Assembly (NCBI RefSeq): GCF_014639315.1
Contig: NZ_BMFY01000001.1
Coordinates: 62,001 to 126,000, forward strand
Length of the DNA stretch: 64,000 bases
DNA from: Sediminivirga luteola
Lineage (GTDB): Bacteria; Actinomycetota; Actinomycetes; Actinomycetales; Brevibacteriaceae
Direction: 5' to 3'
Shown: one piece after another, positions 23,915 to 29,693 of the stretch
How positions within the stretch are numbered: position 1 is the first letter of the stretch
How the letters are laid out: the number at the start of each line of letters is the position of its first letter
Program-made: the position numbers and the translations under genes
Notes under the pieces: model-generated
Database searches by the model: none
What the model saw: only the letters and a program-made list of their open reading frames with translations
What the model was told of the DNA's origin: nothing

Positions 23915-24739
23915 ATGACGCAGCTGGCATTCATCGGCGCCGGATCCATGGGCTCGGCCCTCATCGAGGGCCTGCTGGCCGGGGGACACCCGGTGGACGG
24001 CATCACCGCCACCACGGGGAGCGCGGCGAGTGCGCAGGCACTGCACGATCGGCTCGGCGTCCAGGCAGTGGCCCTCGCTGATGATGCCGACGCCAACCGC
24101 CGGCTGGCGTCCGGCGCGGACATCGTCATCCTCGGGGTGAAGCCCTGGATGATCCGCGAGACGCTCGCGGGGCTGGGCCCGCTGCGCGCGGACCAGGTGC
24201 TCGTCTCCGTCGCCGCTGGCATCACCATCGGCACGCTCCGCGATCTCAGCGGGGAGGCGCCCGTGGTCCGGCTCATGCCCAACACGCCCACCGCCATCGG
24301 CCTCGGCGCCTCGTCCCTGTCCGTCGCCGATGATCCCTCCCCGGCGGAGGAGGCCGCCGCCGACCGGGTGACCGAGCTGTTCGCGCCCACCGGAGTGATC
24401 GTGCGGCTGCCGGAGGACCAGATTCCCGCGATGACGGGGATCGCCGGTTCCGGCACGGCCTACTTCTACCACCTGGCCGAAGTCCTCATCGAGGCCGGAG
24501 TGCGGGAAGGCCTCGACCGGGAGACGGCAGTGCGGCTGGTGCACGCCACGGCCCACGGAGCCGGCGCCATGCTGGCCCGCGGCGCCGACGACGCCGGCAC
24601 GTTGCGCGGCAAGGTCACCAGCAAAGGCGGGACGACCGCCGCGGCGCTCGCGGTCTTCGCTGAAGCCGGCTTCCCGGAGGTGGCGCACCGCGCCGTCAAA
24701 GCCGCCGCCGACCGCGCCCGTGAGATGGCCGCCGAGTAG
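23915..24739 (+). CDS. proC: Pyrroline-5-carboxylate reductase
   Basis: Last step of proline synthesis, NAD(P)H-dependent. 274 aa. The N-terminal Rossmann motif is FIGAGSMGSALIEGLLAGG (about 5-23). The NPT segment is VRLMPNTPTAIGLGAS (about 120-135). The dimerisation domain contains the family signature GIAGSGTAYFYHLAEVLIEAG and KVTSKGGTTAAAL (about 231-243). A strong AAGGAGA ribosome site lies 3-4 nt before the ATG. A possible -10 is TAGGGT near 23854. Confidence 0.97.
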   Translation: MTQLAFIGAGSMGSALIEGLLAGGHPVDGITATTGSAASAQALHDRLGVQAVALADDADANRRLASGADIVILGVKPWMIRETLAGLGPLRADQVLVSVAAGITIGTLRDLSGEAPVVRLMPNTPTAIGLGASSLSVADDPSPAEEAAADRVTELFAPTGVIVRLPEDQIPAMTGIAGSGTAYFYHLAEVLIEAGVREGLDRETAVRLVHATAHGAGAMLARGADDAGTLRGKVTSKGGTTAAALAVFAEAGFPEVAHRAVKAAADRAREMAAE

Positions 24740-24815
24740 CCGCCGCCATCGTCCGCGAGCGCGTGGCGACGCTGCGCGGCACAGGCGGTGAGCGTGCGAT
24801 GACGCTGCGGCACAA

Positions 24816-24877
24816 AACAACCGCCTAGTGACAGAACACCACCGTCTACGGTGGTGTTCTGTCACTAGGCGGTTGTT
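24816..24877. repeat. Long perfect palindrome, copy 1 of 2
   Basis: Two perfect 30-bp arms (24816-24845 and 24848-24877) are separated by a 2-nt CT centre. The arm starts AACAACCGCCTAGTGACAG and ends CACCGT. It lies 77 bp after the proC stop and before the 3' end of the convergent DUF559 gene, so as RNA it could act as a bidirectional terminator. Copy 2 lies at 26177-26248. The two copies differ at three arm positions, and each change is matched in the opposite arm. Confidence 0.9.
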
Positions 24878-24904
24878 CTACGGGCGCGCTGCGAGGCGGA
24901 GGCC

Positions 24905-25006
24905 CGGGCGGAGCAGGCGGCTTGCGGGCGGCGGGGCTCACGAGTGGCGAGCGGCTTGCGGGGCTCCCGAGTGGCGGGGTGCCCGAGTGGCAGGCGGCTT
25001 GCGGGC
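24905..25006 (+). repeat. Degenerate GAGTGGC/GCGGCTTGCGGG repeats next to palindrome copy 1
   Basis: GAGTGGC occurs three times (about 24942, 24970 and 24985), interleaved with GGCGGCTTGCGGG-like words. Together they fill the space between the palindrome and the stop codon of the DUF559 gene. Confidence 0.6.
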
Positions 25007-26044
25007 TCAGACGCGCACACCTGCTGCGCGTAGTTTGGCCGCAGTCCTCGCGGGATCGATGAGGTCTGCCCACTCCAGACGCACGACCGTATAGCCGAGA
25101 GCCCGGATGGCGTCTTCGCGTCTCTTCTCCGCGCGGAATGCGTGCAGGGCAGCGGCACGATCCTCAGCCGGGTACTTTGACCATCCGTCCACCTCGACCA
25201 CAATGCGTCCGATCAGGAAGTCCACGCGCGCGATCTCTTGGCCCTCGCGGTTCAGCAGACGCACCTGCTGGCGATAGGCGCCGGTGAGGCCGAGTACGTC
25301 CAGCACTGCGATAGCCAGGCTCTCCGCCGGGCTCTCCGAGAGCCCGCGGGCCAGCCGCAGCACCTTCACATAACGCTTCGCCGCGGCCGACGACCGGCAC
25401 CGGGACGCCTGGGCATGCGCCGCGCGAAGTCGCTCTGACACAGGTTGTGAGTACACCTCCACGACCGCGGGTGAGTGGTCCGGTGTGATGATGCTCCTGC
25501 CACGCAGCAGATGATCCGCGGCTGTGATCGCCGCGGCGAGTCCCGCATCGGCGGCCAGATCGCGTACGGTCGCCCACGGCGAGGTGACCGGCCTGCCGAG
25601 GACGCTGCTGACCTCGGCCGCTTCCCTGGGCGGCCGGTGCATCCGGATGTGAGCGGTGCGCCGGGAGATCGGCCCGCTGTACTCCAGCAGCTCCGGTACG
25701 GCGGAAATGATCGGCAGGCCGTGCAGTACGGCTGCCGAGACATGGCTCACCACGGCGCCGGCGGGAGGCCGGCGCAGGACCAGCCGGGCTCTGTGCCATG
25801 CGAGCTGCGCCTTCGCCTTGTCCTGGACGCTGGCATCCGGCCGCCTCCCGGCTGCGACCGTCTGCAGCCAGCGTTCATCGTCGATGAAGGAGTGGAACAT
25901 GCGGTGCTCGTCCGCTTCGCAGAGCTGGAAGACGGCGTAGATCCCGCGGGCTGCACGTGCGACGCAGCAGCCGAGCGCTGAGTCGAGGATGCGCCTGCCA
26001 TCCGGGAGGATCGCGATGCGCTGGCGGGTGAATGAGTTGAACAT
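25007..26044 (-). CDS. DUF559-type protein with predicted PD-(D/E)XK nuclease-like C-terminus
   Basis: 345 aa. The C-terminal part (about 235-345) matches the Vsr/DUF559 endonuclease-like layout: a Glu-containing helix SPAESLAIAVLDVLG, then IARVDFLIGRIVVEVDGWSKY. There the Asp and the Glu-x-Asp after the strand form the usual D...ExD site. A helix with basic residues and the strand YTVVRLEWADLI follow. The N-terminal two thirds resemble AbiEi-like proteins common in actinobacteria (AVVSHVSAAVLHGLPI). Function unknown; related genes are seen in defence or mobile contexts, but no partner is present here. The gene lies between the two palindrome copies, so it may be a cassette inserted between proC and acuC. 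Confidence 0.7.
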   Translation of the reverse strand: MFNSFTRQRIAILPDGRRILDSALGCCVARAARGIYAVFQLCEADEHRMFHSFIDDERWLQTVAAGRRPDASVQDKAKAQLAWHRARLVLRRPPAGAVVSHVSAAVLHGLPIISAVPELLEYSGPISRRTAHIRMHRPPREAAEVSSVLGRPVTSPWATVRDLAADAGLAAAITAADHLLRGRSIITPDHSPAVVEVYSQPVSERLRAAHAQASRCRSSAAAKRYVKVLRLARGLSESPAESLAIAVLDVLGLTGAYRQQVRLLNREGQEIARVDFLIGRIVVEVDGWSKYPAEDRAAALHAFRAEKRREDAIRALGYTVVRLEWADLIDPARTAAKLRAAGVRV

Positions 26045-26127
26045 GGTGCCAGCATGGCCGTACCGCAGGGCGCCAGCCAGGGATCCGGTCCATCATGTGG
26101 AGGGACGCCTCGCGACCAGGCTCCTGT

Positions 26128-26176
26128 GACACGGCGCGGCTACGCCGTGCACGGCACAGCGGAACGCCGTGCCGCG
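26128..26176. other. Two small hairpins directly upstream of palindrome copy 2
   Basis: CACGGCG-N6-CGCCGTG, then GCACGGC-N10-GCCGTGC, lie back to back and lead straight into the long palindrome. This gives three stem-loops in about 120 bp between the DUF559 start and the acuC stop. Confidence 0.6.
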
Positions 26177-26248
26177 CGCAGAACAACCGCCTGGTGACAG
26201 AACGACACCGTCTACGGTGTCGTTCTGTCACCAGGCGGTTGTTCTGCG
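26177..26248. repeat. Long perfect palindrome, copy 2 of 2
   Basis: Two perfect 35-bp arms (26177-26211 and 26214-26248) share the same CT centre and the same core AACAACCGCC-T-G-GTGACAGAAC as copy 1. It starts 18 bp after the acuC stop on the minus strand, a natural place for a terminator, but no T-tract follows in either direction. Confidence 0.9.
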
Positions 26249-26266
26249 AGTGCCTCCCAGGGAGGC

Positions 26267-27469
26267 TCAGTCGTAGTAGGGGTCGAGACCGTAGAACGGG
26301 AACACGCACTTGCGGGTGTTCATCACCGCGCGGTCCAGCTCCGAGCCCGGGTCGTAGCCGTCCGTCCACGGCGCCACCGGGGGCAGCTCGGCCTCGCCCA
26401 TGTGCCGGGGGGCGTCCCGCCCGGTCAGCTCCAGCACGTACTCCCGCCAGCGTTCCGGGGTCTCCGATGTGTACGCCAGCTCGGCGCCCGCGGCGATCGC
26501 CACCAGGTTCACCCACACCCTCGGCACCACCTCGACCAGCTCGTAGCCACCGCCACCGGTGGCCAGCCATCGCCCGCCGGTGTGCTCCTCGGCCAGTGCG
26601 CGCACCCGCACCGTCGCCTCGCGCATGGCGTCCACGCTCAGCCGCAGATGCGTCAGCGGATCCTGCCGGTGCCCGTCGCAGCCGTGCTGGGAGACGATCA
26701 CCTGCGGCCGGAACTCCCGCACCACCTGCGGCACGACCGCGTCGAAGGCCCGCAGCCAGTCCTGGTCTCCCGTGCGCGGCGGCAGCGCGATGTTGACCGC
26801 GCTCGCGGCGGCGTCGTTGCCGCCGATCTCGTCCGGGTAACCGGTGCCCGGGAACAGGAACCTGCCGTTCTCGTGCAGGGACACCGTGAGCACGCGCGGG
26901 TCGTCCCAGAAGATCGACTCGGTGCCGTCGCCGTGATGGGCGTCCAGGTCGATATACGCAATGCGCTCATAGCCATTGTCCAGCAGATGCGTGATCGCCC
27001 CGGCCAGATCGTTGTACACGCAGAAGCCCGAGGCCTTGCCGTGCATGGCGTGGTGCATCCCGCCGCAGAAGTTCACCGCCCGCGAGTAACGGCCGCTCGA
27101 GATCGCCTCGGCCGCCAGGACGCTGCCCTGATAGATCCGGGCCGAGGCCTCGTGCACCTTGTCGAACCGGGGCACGTCCTCGGTGCCGATGCCGAACTCC
27201 TCCCGCACGCTCGCGGCGATGTCGGCGCTCACCTCCGCGTTCCGGACCGCCTGGACGAACTCCGGCGCATGCACCCGCGCCAGGGACTCGTCGGTGGCCA
27301 CCCCCGGCGCGGCGATGTGCACGCGGCTCAGATCGAAGAGCCCCATGTCGATGGCGAGCTTGGCGGTGAGGTCCAGCCGCAGGGGATGCATGGGGTGGGT
27401 CGGGCCGAAGTTGTACTCCGAGAACGACTCATCCCACACCACGAGGACCTCGGTGGCGTCAGCGCTCAT
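26267..27469 (-). CDS. acuC: Histone deacetylase-superfamily protein AcuC
   Basis: Zinc-dependent deacetylase; in other bacteria AcuC removes acetyl groups from acetyl-CoA synthetase. 400 aa. Active-site blocks are GGMHHAMHGKASGFCVYND (about 135-153) with the His pair, AYIDLDAHHGDGTESIF (about 170-186) with metal-binding Asp/His, SQHGCDGHRQDPLTHL (about 255-270) with the second metal Asp, and ATGGGGYEL with the C-terminal glycine loop. No acs or acuA gene is adjacent. On the minus strand TAGGCT (27481-27476) ends 6 nt before the ATG, so the mRNA is probably leaderless. Confidence 0.93.
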   Translation of the reverse strand: MSADATEVLVVWDESFSEYNFGPTHPMHPLRLDLTAKLAIDMGLFDLSRVHIAAPGVATDESLARVHAPEFVQAVRNAEVSADIAASVREEFGIGTEDVPRFDKVHEASARIYQGSVLAAEAISSGRYSRAVNFCGGMHHAMHGKASGFCVYNDLAGAITHLLDNGYERIAYIDLDAHHGDGTESIFWDDPRVLTVSLHENGRFLFPGTGYPDEIGGNDAAASAVNIALPPRTGDQDWLRAFDAVVPQVVREFRPQVIVSQHGCDGHRQDPLTHLRLSVDAMREATVRVRALAEEHTGGRWLATGGGGYELVEVVPRVWVNLVAIAAGAELAYTSETPERWREYVLELTGRDAPRHMGEAELPPVAPWTDGYDPGSELDRAVMNTRKCVFPFYGLDPYYD

Positions 27470-27475
27470 GGAGAC

Positions 27476-27481
27476 AGCCTA
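27476..27481 (-). promoter_or_regulatory. -10 box TAGGCT, leaderless start of acuC
   Basis: TAGGCT on the minus strand is followed by six bases and then the acuC ATG. No ribosome site. Confidence 0.6.
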
Positions 27482-27604
27482 TGTGCTTCGCGCCGGTGGT
27501 GCGCGCGCCGGACGCCCAGGGCGTCTACACTGCCTGAAGATCGACACACCGGCCGTGCACCCGCCGGCCGGCCGATGGAGCCGTCAAGGCTCGAGAGGAG
27601 AGGC

Positions 27605-29014
27605 GTGCCCGCGTCCATCCGCCCGTTGCTGTCCCGCTTCGGCCGGGCCCTCACCGCAGGAGTGCGGTGGCTCCGGGACGTCATCGATGAAGTCGCCTCC
27701 TCCACGCCGGCCCGGCTGGCGCTGGTCTCATTCACCGCCGTGGTGCTCGTATTCGTGGGCCTGCTGAGCCTGCCGGTCTCCTACCGGGGCGAGGGCGCGG
27801 CGGAGTTCAACGTCGTCGTGTTCGTCGCCGTCTCGGCCGTGTGCGTCACCGGCCTGACGCCCGTCATCACGGAGCAGTACTGGTCGGAATTCGGCATCAG
27901 CGTCATCACCCTGGCCATCCAGGTGGGTGGCCTGGGCATCCTCACCCTCGCGTCCATCATGGGCATGGCCGTGTCCAAGCGCCTCGGCGTGCGGCAGAAG
28001 CTCATCGCCGCCCAGGCCACGAACGCCGTGAACCTCGGTGCCGTCGGCACCCTGCTGCGGGTCGTGGTGATCACCGTTCTGACCGCCGAGGTCATCGTCG
28101 CGGCACTGCTGTTCCCCCGCTTCCTCGCCCGCGGCGAGGAGTTCGGGGATGCGCTCTGGTACTCGGTCTTCTACTCCATCTCCGCGTTCAACAACGCCGG
28201 CTTCACCATCCACCCCGGCGGGATGGCCCATTTCGCCGATGACCCGTGGATCCTCCTCGTCGTGGCCCTGGCGGTGTTCGTCGGCTCGCTCGGGTTCCCG
28301 GTGATCCTGGTGCTCTCCCTGGCGTGGCGACGGCCGAAGAAATGGGATCTGCACACCCGGCTCACGCTCACCGTCTCGCTCGTCCTGGTCGTCATCGGCG
28401 CCGCCCTGCTGGCGCTCTTCGAGTGGAACAACGAGCGCACGCTGGGGTCGAAGGGGTTCTGGCAGACGGTCCTGGAAGTCGTCTTCGCCGCGGTCATGCC
28501 CCGCTCGGGCGGATTCGCGACGATGGACATCGCCGATATGCATCAGACCTCCCACCTGGTCCTGGACATGCTGATGTTCATCGGCGGCGGCTCCTCCTCC
28601 ACCGCCGGCGGGATCAAGGTCACGACCCTCGCGGTGCTGCTGCTGGCCGCGCTCGCCGAGGCGCGGGGCCTGGACGACGTCTCGGTGTTCCACCGGCGGA
28701 TCAGCCCGGCGACGATCCGGCTGGCGGTGGCCGTGATGCTGGTGGGCGTGGCCACCGTCGTCGGCGGCAGCATCATCATGCTGCACGTGACCAAGCTGCC
28801 GCTCGACCTGGTGCTGTTCGAGGTCACGAGCGCCTTCGGCACGAGCGGACTCACCTCCGGCGTGAGCGAGGCCTCGCCGCCGGCGGGCAGATACGTCTTA
28901 AGCGTGCTGATGTTCCAAGGCAGACTGGGTACCATCACACTCGCTGCGGCGCTGGCGCTGCAGAACCAGAAACGTCTGTTCAGGTATCCCGAGGAAAGGC
29001 CGATCATTGGATAG
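27605..29014 (+). CDS. trkH: TrkH/KtrB-type potassium uptake channel subunit
   Basis: Membrane channel for K+ uptake. 469 aa with about eight to ten hydrophobic helices in four M1-P-M2 repeats. Selectivity-filter loops are seen at VCVTGLTPV (about 79-87), SAFNNAGFTIHPGG (about 195-208), PRSGGFATMDIADM (about 298-311) and SAFGTSGLTSG (about 408-418). Each has the single Gly typical of Trk/Ktr. GTG start with GAGGAGAGG directly upstream; an in-frame ATG 30 nt earlier is possible. The end overlaps the trkA start by 8 bases. Confidence 0.92.
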   Translation: MPASIRPLLSRFGRALTAGVRWLRDVIDEVASSTPARLALVSFTAVVLVFVGLLSLPVSYRGEGAAEFNVVVFVAVSAVCVTGLTPVITEQYWSEFGISVITLAIQVGGLGILTLASIMGMAVSKRLGVRQKLIAAQATNAVNLGAVGTLLRVVVITVLTAEVIVAALLFPRFLARGEEFGDALWYSVFYSISAFNNAGFTIHPGGMAHFADDPWILLVVALAVFVGSLGFPVILVLSLAWRRPKKWDLHTRLTLTVSLVLVVIGAALLALFEWNNERTLGSKGFWQTVLEVVFAAVMPRSGGFATMDIADMHQTSHLVLDMLMFIGGGSSSTAGGIKVTTLAVLLLAALAEARGLDDVSVFHRRISPATIRLAVAVMLVGVATVVGGSIIMLHVTKLPLDLVLFEVTSAFGTSGLTSGVSEASPPAGRYVLSVLMFQGRLGTITLAAALALQNQKRLFRYPEERPIIG

Positions 29015-29693
29015 GACCACCCGCCGGATGAAGGAGGAGGCGCAGTCGCCCGTGCTCGTCATCGGGCTGGGGCGCTTCGGCTCGTCCACGGCGCTGACCC
29101 TGCAGCGGCTCGGCCGCGAGGTCCTCGCGGTGGAGCAGGACGCCCACCTCGTCCAGGAATGGACCGGCCGGCTCACGCACGTGGTGGAGGCGGACACCAC
29201 CAATATCGAGGCGCTGCGGCAGATCGGCGCCTCCGAGTTCGACACGGCGGTGATCGGCATCGGCACCTCGGTCGAGGCCAGCGTGCTGACCTGCGCGAAC
29301 CTCTCGGACCTTGGCATCGGGCAGATCTGGGCGAAATCCATCTCGGTGGCGCACGGCCGGATCCTCAGCCGCATCGGCGCCCATCACGTGCTCTATCCCG
29401 AGTCCGACGCCGGCGCACGCGTCGCCCACCTGGTGTCCTCGCGGATGCTGGACTACATCGAGTTCGACGAGGGCCACTTCGCCGTGGTGAAGATCCCGCC
29501 GCCGCTCGAAGTGCAGGGGAAGCTGCTGAGCGAATCGCGCATCCGGGACAACTACGACGTCACGGTCGTGGGGATCAAGAGCCCGGGGAAGGACTTCACC
29601 TACGCCGAGCCCAGCACTTACGTCTCCCCGGACGACATGCTCCTGGTGGCGGGACAGATCCACCGGATCAACCGCTTCGCCGCCAGGCCCTAG
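29007..29693 (+). CDS. trkA: TrkA/KtrA-type potassium channel regulator (RCK domain)
   Basis: Cytoplasmic gating ring subunit of the K+ uptake system. 228 aa. An RCK_N Rossmann fold VIGLGRFGSSTALTLQRLG (about 18-36) ends in an acidic residue (AVEQD), pointing to NAD(H)/ATP binding. An RCK_C domain follows at about 145-225. The TTG at 29007 fits the upstream GAGGAAAGG and overlaps trkH. An ATG at 29028 is the alternative start and would lose seven residues. Confidence 0.92.
   Translation: MDRTTRRMKEEAQSPVLVIGLGRFGSSTALTLQRLGREVLAVEQDAHLVQEWTGRLTHVVEADTTNIEALRQIGASEFDTAVIGIGTSVEASVLTCANLSDLGIGQIWAKSISVAHGRILSRIGAHHVLYPESDAGARVAHLVSSRMLDYIEFDEGHFAVVKIPPPLEVQGKLLSESRIRDNYDVTVVGIKSPGKDFTYAEPSTYVSPDDMLLVAGQIHRINRFAARP

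Follow-up and report, generated by a model that had tools for sequence, protein, structure and literature searches.

AbiEi proteins are the antitoxins of the type IV AbiE systems, and they autoregulate. The protein described here, P0001, is similar to them in its winged-helix (wHTH) segment and in its middle domain, and differs from them in having a predicted nuclease at its C-terminus, metal-type residues within the winged helix, and no adjacent AbiEii. The predicted nuclease resembles the Vsr, DUF559 (PF04480) and REase_MTES_1575 (PF18741) nucleases, among them I-Bth0305I, with which the P0001 family shares the order of the core fold and the catalytic-type positions. Compared with the DUF559 pattern, P0001 has by alignment a lysine near the histidine and a glutamate near the last aspartate; it also carries wHTH and AbiEi-like parts in front of the core, and neither a linked methylase nor an intron was seen. 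The P0001 gene lies between proC and an acuC-like gene, and a search that covered C5-methylases found no linked methylase such as a restriction-modification system would have: the matches in this genome are confined to contigs C8 and C20, and the window is on C1.

The nearest studied protein that we found is VsrA of Caulobacter crescentus, a solo DUF559, Vsr-like protein, which is described in the accessible text of its report as provoking the SOS response after deletion of a solitary methylase (PMC12907096). On that description, VsrA and P0001 are both solo, unlinked, and of the DUF559/Vsr-like kind. They differ in that the accessible text describes VsrA as induced in the SOS response and does not mention an AbiEi part (PMC12907096), while no SOS-box-like match was found upstream of 53 genes of the P0001 family. 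RAP-domain proteins (FASTK, and those of the Toxoplasma mitoribosome) also have a Vsr-like fold and give weak sequence and fold matches to the P0001 family; they are RNA-binding, unlike P0001 as it is read here, and for FASTKD4 the accessible part of one account gives arguments against nuclease activity (PMC11879112). We found no description in the open-access literature of the P0001 family, its role, its cysteines or its promoter box.

Gene and domain organization

The window, by which we mean the whole stretch of DNA analysed, is 64,000 nucleotides long and lies on contig C1 of the Sediminivirga luteola genome (3.86 Mb in 45 contigs); gene names within it were assigned from translations. The P0001 gene has proC (plus strand, 23915–24739) on one side and the acuC-like gene (minus strand, 26267–27469) on the other. 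Its features are collected in Table 1. The open reading frame had been proposed in an earlier sequence-only reading of the window, and it is real: its coordinates were confirmed, and its start is backed by a near-invariant M1 in the alignment and by the promoter spacing.

Table 1. Features of the P0001 gene and its upstream region, in window coordinates.
Feature	Position	Strand	Details
Candidate solo nuclease gene, P0001, 345 aa	25007..26044	minus	ATG at 26044
AbiEi-type winged-helix-like segment with C26, C27, C42, H47	25871..26044	minus	Residues 1–58; alignment and hhalign
Putative metal site: C26+C27 (25964–25969), C42 (25919–25921), H47 (25904–25906)	25904..25969	minus	57/58 aligned rows
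AbiEi-like middle, approximately residues 69–225	25370..25840	minus	HMM match 69–167; end at 225 estimated
Predicted Vsr/DUF559-type nuclease core, approximately residues 233–345; E241, D275, K290, E306	25010..25348	minus	
TCCACA box (DnaA-box core)	26096..26101	minus	−57 from ATG; context CCCTCCACATG
−35-like CTGGCT	26075..26080	minus	In register with relatives' conserved T, G/T at −35/−34
−10-like CATGCT (CANNNT)	26051..26056	minus	At −12..−7, ends 6 nt before ATG

The rows of the protein alignment and of the promoter comparison were picked by similarity to P0001 and by the regions fetched, and not by their cysteines or promoters. Many of these rows are related, so the counts given below are counts of genes and not of independent events.

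PADLOC models of AbiEi match P0001 over residues 69–167 (E 8.6e-11), in agreement with the AbiEi-like middle that had been recognised from the sequence. The Pfam search proposed at the same time gave a divided answer: P0001 alone has no Pfam match (DUF559 included) and no NCBIfam match at E ≤ 1, while 30 of the 46 rows formed by P0001 and 45 relatives match DUF559 at E ≤ 0.1. The same scan matched RAP in 19 rows, REase_MTES_1575 in 13, AbiEi_1 in 6 and AbiEi_4 in 3.

The nuclease core

The motifs that had suggested a PD-(D/E)XK site, namely a glutamate followed by VDF and EVDG, are present as E237-x3-E241, VDF with D275, and EVDG with E284 and D286, and are followed by K290 and E306. E237, E241, Q260, D275, G287 and K290 are invariant in the 46 rows. 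K290 is found in all 58 rows of the larger alignment, at the position where the EDxHD/Vsr site has histidine (EDxHD being the name used in the accessible text of PMC3943268). The position of E284 is occupied by tyrosine in 13 of the 58 rows, so some of the relatives may be inactive as nucleases.

AlphaFold2 was run on four sequences and is usable only for approximately the last 100 residues: for P0001 the mean pLDDT is 48.3 over the whole protein, with block values of 21–53 over the poorly predicted first 240 residues and 59–85 from residue 241 on. The predicted core has the order α-β-β-β-α-β across residues 239–323 (helix 239–250; strands 257–264, 270–278 and 281–285; helix 296–315; strand 319–323). 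Foldseek gave I-Bth0305I (3r3p) as the top match to this model, with a probability of 1.00, an E of 8e-3 and a TM by target of 0.71; 3hrl ranked fourth, and no match fell under 1e-3. The family profile run against the PDB also matched 3r3p (E 0.021) and 3hrl (E 0.29), both weakly. In the HMMER alignment to 3hrl, D275 corresponds to the VDF aspartate of the DUF559 pattern, and K290 and E306 fall close to its histidine and its last aspartate, respectively, so that by this alignment K290 would stand in for the histidine and E306 for the last aspartate. The predictions support the sequence-only reading in that the back of P0001 is a Vsr/DUF559-type core of the PD-(D/E)XK superfamily; the catalytic-type residues are intact, and the core is presumably catalytic.

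A Cys/His signature in the winged helix

Of the 58 aligned rows, 57, those of P0001 plus 56 homologues, have all four of C26, C27, C42 and H47; the one exception, L067, is without the whole segment. In the set of 46 rows they are conserved as strictly as the nuclease residues. The spacing of the signature is CC-x14-C-x4-H or CC-x14-C-x2-H (38 rows). Neither the signature nor the upstream box described below formed part of the sequence-only reading.

The Cys/His segment was aligned by hhalign with the ordinary AbiEi-type wHTH of relatives from other families, ten of eleven of which could be cut out; the probability was 96% and the score 41.3, against scores of at most 12.6 in 20 column-shuffled control runs. 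Both cysteines of the CC pair align with the turn before the wing of the ordinary wHTH, and the alignment does not extend to C42 and H47. The AlphaFold2 model of the N-terminal segment (mean pLDDT 56.8) has the order strand-helix-helix-strand-strand, a weak prediction that fits a winged helix; Foldseek found nothing significant with this model.

A profile of the segment matches 53 of 60 genomes of the family, with 280 matches in total and up to 10 per genome. The 60 genomes include the present one, and 57 belong to the largest sister genus, whose flanking regions are 87–92% identical to named Brevibacterium contigs; we therefore call the family Brevibacteriaceae by kinship. Two other genera of the family (g3 and g4, represented by G058 and G059) contain general relatives, and the Cys/His segment was not found in them. 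In the overlapping samples of 394 genomes of the class and 396 of the phylum, the present genome aside, matches were found only in G617, G798 and G1019; at most 16 candidates were scored per genome in these scans, so copy numbers and absences are lower bounds. None of the three has the complete signature: those in G617 and G798 (L135 and L162) are ordinary relatives without the cysteines, and that in G1019 (L163) covers 27 columns of an ORF antisense to a dehydrogenase-like frame and has CC but not the signature. No copy was found in G020, another genome of the family within the class and phylum samples. The pattern suggests that the winged helix gained a metal-site-like Cys/His signature in Brevibacteriaceae, where the CC-C-H residues probably form a zinc site. 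A metal-type site that occurs in one family offers a clean comparison of versions with and without it.

An upstream box at a fixed position

Among 57 genes, those of P0001 and of 56 homologues, 49 have the hexamer TCCACA at −62..−50 relative to the start codon: at −58 in 24, −57 in 13, −56 in 11 and −55 in one; with one mismatch allowed, it is found at −60..−54 in 54 of the 57. It occurs at −62..−50 in 0.27% of shuffled upstreams and in none of 364 other genes of the same loci, which carry mechanical longest-ORF starts (Fisher 5e-56, the rows not being independent), and anywhere within 150 nt upstream in 8 of the 364. Permuted hexamers scored a mean of 0.5 among the 57 genes; only two exceeded 1 (19 and 6), and both overlap the box.

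In 48 non-redundant upstreams the box widens to TTRTCCACAG, with the three bases on its 5′ side loosely conserved. The same upstreams have T at +22 in 40 of 48 and CANNNT at −12..−7 (A in 37 and T in 40 of 48), which would form a −35/−10 pair, with the transcript expected to start at the ATG. TANNNT was rejected as the −10 form, being rare (2 of 39, versus a shuffled rate of 15%); CANNNT is the conserved form. Seven ribosome-site-like 5-mers were sought before the start and found in 0 of the 57 nuclease genes, compared with 113 of the 364 neighbours, which fits a leaderless start.

The window gene has T at −35. CCC stands just 5′ of its TCCACA and the 5′ TTR is missing, and this together with the loose conservation on the 5′ side makes the affinity for DnaA unsure. 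As for a second box further upstream, the window has only CACAG, at −84. A decayed second copy in the genome (L136, see below) has TTATCCACAG at −58, with the box intact. The genome as a whole has 14 exact TTRTCCACA sites, one of them before this decayed copy, against 9 for the pattern read backwards, and is thus hardly enriched. Patterns for SOS- and PafBC-type sites matched nothing upstream of 53 genes, in 9 of which the position used is the aligned lysine and not the start.

The box extends beyond the family. In the order, 50 loci from other families were collected, and 35 of the relatives were anchored on the winged helix. Within 420 nt upstream, TCCACA is found in 28 of these 35 as against 21 of 223 control ORFs (p 6e-18), and T[TC][AG]TCCACA in 16 of 35 as against 7 of 223 (p 5e-11). 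Picking among candidate starts lifts the score, and permuted hexamers were therefore used as the control for position: TCCACA lies at −60..−54 of an in-frame start in 25 of the 35 (permuted hexamers mean 0.4, maximum 6), and the other 10 have no box there. Among the order relatives (L124–L133, L164–L203), a spacing of 28 or 29 nt from one box to the next is seen 13 times. The class set comprises 28 loci from other orders, of which 22 were anchored; 11 of the 22 have the box at −60..−54 (permuted hexamers mean 0.19, maximum 5) and 11 do not. Boxes of the class relatives are mostly TTATCCACA, TTGTCCACA or TCGTCCACA, the first two of which are the consensus for DnaA boxes in E. coli and in actinobacteria.

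A DnaA-like ORF, identified from the Walker motif alone, is present at five of eight contig starts, and these five contain 4, 5, 3, 3 and 4 T[TC][AGT]TCCACA boxes per 6 kb; the three contig starts without such an ORF contain 1, 0 and 0. The sister genus therefore has the box sequence at dnaA. A DnaA-box core stands at a fixed promoter position in the P0001 gene and many of its relatives, and DnaA may be the protein that binds it, with the nuclease itself or another factor as alternatives.

Distribution, neighborhoods and selection

Relatives were found in 271 of 297 genomes of the order and, for the class, in at least 216 of the 296 genomes sampled, where up to six candidates were scored per genome and counts are lower bounds. 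This makes the family a large one, and a partnerless one: no recurrent partner gene was found in 41 neighborhoods (40 loci and the window). The neighbor clusters that recur most widely are c1, in 7 loci, and c3, in 6, and most others recur through shared synteny; c1 is no further than two picked genes from the nuclease at L083, L097, L087 and L091 only. The survey of homologues' neighbors that the sequence-only reading had called for covered 98 non-redundant neighbors (98 of 99 listed). Among the 25 of 133 matching Pfam families that were listed, none matches more than two of the 98, and those listed largely belong to core genes, RNA polymerase, topoisomerases and enolase among them. PADLOC families matching at least one neighbor at E ≤ 1e-5 number 54, and among the 25 of these that were listed none matches more than two neighbors; mad2, mad3 and mad8 match two each, and there are single GajA-, AriA- and HEC-01A-type matches.

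AbiEii (PF08843) was not found in the present genome, nor beside the P0001 gene, in keeping with the earlier statement that no partner is adjacent. Half of the 60 family genomes (30) have it, and among the matches listed the one nearest to a nuclease is that in G031, at a distance of 2.4 kb and separated from it by two picked ORFs. The copy number of the nuclease is unrelated to the presence of AbiEii (p 0.85). The sequence-only reading had left it open whether the protein acts alone or has lost its partner. The former fits better; the partnerless neighborhoods, the copy number independent of AbiEii and the syntenic copies all speak against a lost partner.

Several copies keep the same site across species. 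One such group comprises L080, L084, L085, L093 and L099, and another (L066, L068, L072 and L075) lies beside rpoB-rpoC, with rpoC recognised by the motif NADFDGDQM in all four. Of 18 close pairs, 17 have dN/dS values of 0.05–0.21 and are under purifying selection, and no domain stands out; the remaining pair has a dN/dS of 0.71 at a dS of 0.02. Several broken copies were seen. In the decayed copy of the present genome (G000:C6:126279-126437), the N-terminal segment with the cysteines is followed by a frame break, the middle is deleted, and what remains of the C-terminus lies in a different frame. No relative was detectable in five viral contigs that have a DNA pattern of the E[FV]DG..KY type.

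Proposed function

We tentatively read P0001 as a DNA nuclease that works alone, resides in the chromosome and is under a DnaA type of control. The winged helix, probably metal-stabilised, and the AbiEi-like middle would set the nuclease core on DNA, and the core, being Vsr-like (EDxHD-type) and presumably metal-dependent, would most likely nick it. Transcription of the gene would begin right at the ATG, from a promoter that has the DnaA-box-type element (TCCACA, in its fuller form TTRTCCACA) just upstream of the −35. With the element in this position, expression would probably track DnaA and, through it, the state of replication. The fixed sites and the purifying selection suggest that the protein is a resident one that helps to maintain DNA in replicating cells, and speak against a mobile or addiction role. 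If so, the element that stands at a fixed place before many relatives provides a testable handle on when the nuclease is made, and many of the "orphan AbiEi-like" proteins in these bacteria would not be antitoxins.

TCCACA could instead be the nuclease family's own operator, the winged helix repressing its own promoter as AbiEi does and DnaA being uninvolved, which we regard as possible though doubtful. The box marks the nuclease genes and not their neighbors, the 28/29-nt spacing of boxes looks like that of a cooperative operator, and the 5′ TTR half is degenerate, all of which would suit an operator. However, the box is unchanged across the class although the wHTH has diverged, and in Brevibacteriaceae has been rebuilt with four metal-type residues; moreover, it equals the DnaA-box consensus, and the sister genus has it around dnaA.

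A solo anti-phage or anti-plasmid role, that is a one-gene defence cutting foreign replicating DNA, seems to us unlikely. It would account for the combination of nuclease and DNA-binding modules, for a copy number that rises with genome size (Spearman 0.66), for the several broken copies, and for the PADLOC matches among the neighbors. Against it, those matches do not recur beyond two neighbors in any listed PADLOC family, the listed Pfam families of the neighbors are largely those of core genes, and dN/dS is not raised; searches of phage and plasmid collections by tblastn with P0001 and the L039 protein gave no match.

A further reading is a long shot. The nuclease might read the DnaA box itself, operator and target sharing TCCACA, and so compete with DnaA; DnaA would then protect the host origin, and the nuclease would nick sites that resemble origins and are left unprotected on replicons that invade or over-initiate, with CC-C-H acting as a zinc or redox gate in Brevibacteriaceae. 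If true, a partnerless nuclease that senses origins, and serves in replication control or in defence, would be found throughout a whole class of bacteria.

Very-short-patch repair of T:G mismatches arising from deamination of 5-methylcytosine was tested and is improbable. The core is Vsr-like, and VsrA offers a precedent as far as the accessible text describes it (PMC12907096), but the histidine of the Vsr/EDxHD site is replaced by lysine. Furthermore, C5-methylase matches occur in 25 of the 53 genomes with the segment and in 4 of the 7 without it (Fisher p 0.70), and copy number of the nuclease is unrelated to them (p 0.98). This lack of a C5-methylase link speaks against a VsrA-like role.

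A free-standing homing endonuclease gene was likewise tested, and we consider it very improbable: the closest solved core is that of a homing enzyme, I-Bth0305I, and the proC-trk-acuC stretch holds different nucleases in different genomes, but several copies sit at stable syntenic positions across species, and the family has its own promoter with a conserved box, is under purifying selection, and gave no tblastn match in phage or plasmid collections. Least probable of all is an AbiEi antitoxin orphaned from its AbiEii toxin, which would explain the AbiEi-like middle and was tested and disfavoured, given conserved nuclease residues, the lack of a detected AbiEii in the genome or of a recurrent partner, and a copy number that ignores AbiEii.

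The proC-trk-acuC locus

The neighborhood from proC to hemD is conserved across the family. A nuclease bearing the signature lies between proC and trkA in the window and in G051, G045, G029 and G054. G030 has at this place a different, H-type DUF559 nuclease, and G001 and G034 have an H-type nuclease between trkA and trkH. Overall, among 23 loci of relatives, the proC-trk-acuC stretch has no detected nuclease in 16, and in the other 7 it has nucleases that differ in clade or subfamily. The H-type nucleases form an AbiEi-like subfamily with the classical DUF559 histidine (EYEG..H), represented by L155 (between proC and trkA) and by L145 and L146 (between trkA and trkH).

P0001 was considered as an ortholog of the Brevibacterium nuclease between proC and trkA (L082, L089 and L096), and this was rejected by the tree (AU p 5e-6), which has 54 rows, four long or fragmentary rows having been left out, and in which the branch of P0001 is long. 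As far as the tree tells, then, the shared position does not reflect shared descent.

Compared with the family members examined, the acuC-trkH-trkA block (26267–29693) is inverted in the window, and a palindrome (26177–26248) sits at one breakpoint of the inversion. Perfect palindromes of 62 and 72 nt, with GTGACAGAAC-type cores, flank the P0001 gene at 24810–24887 and 26176–26253. This type of palindrome is dispersed, with 69 BLAST matches across the genome on both strands; of 18 places examined, 8 are between convergent genes and 8 between genes that run in the same direction, the remaining 2 overlapping a picked ORF. The palindromes are terminator- or REP-like. The idea that they are the borders of a mobile unit was rejected; they are dispersed intergenic hairpins. 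Between one palindrome and the stop codon of the P0001 gene, at 24919–25004, there is a GC-rich imperfect repeat (GGCTTGCGGG...).
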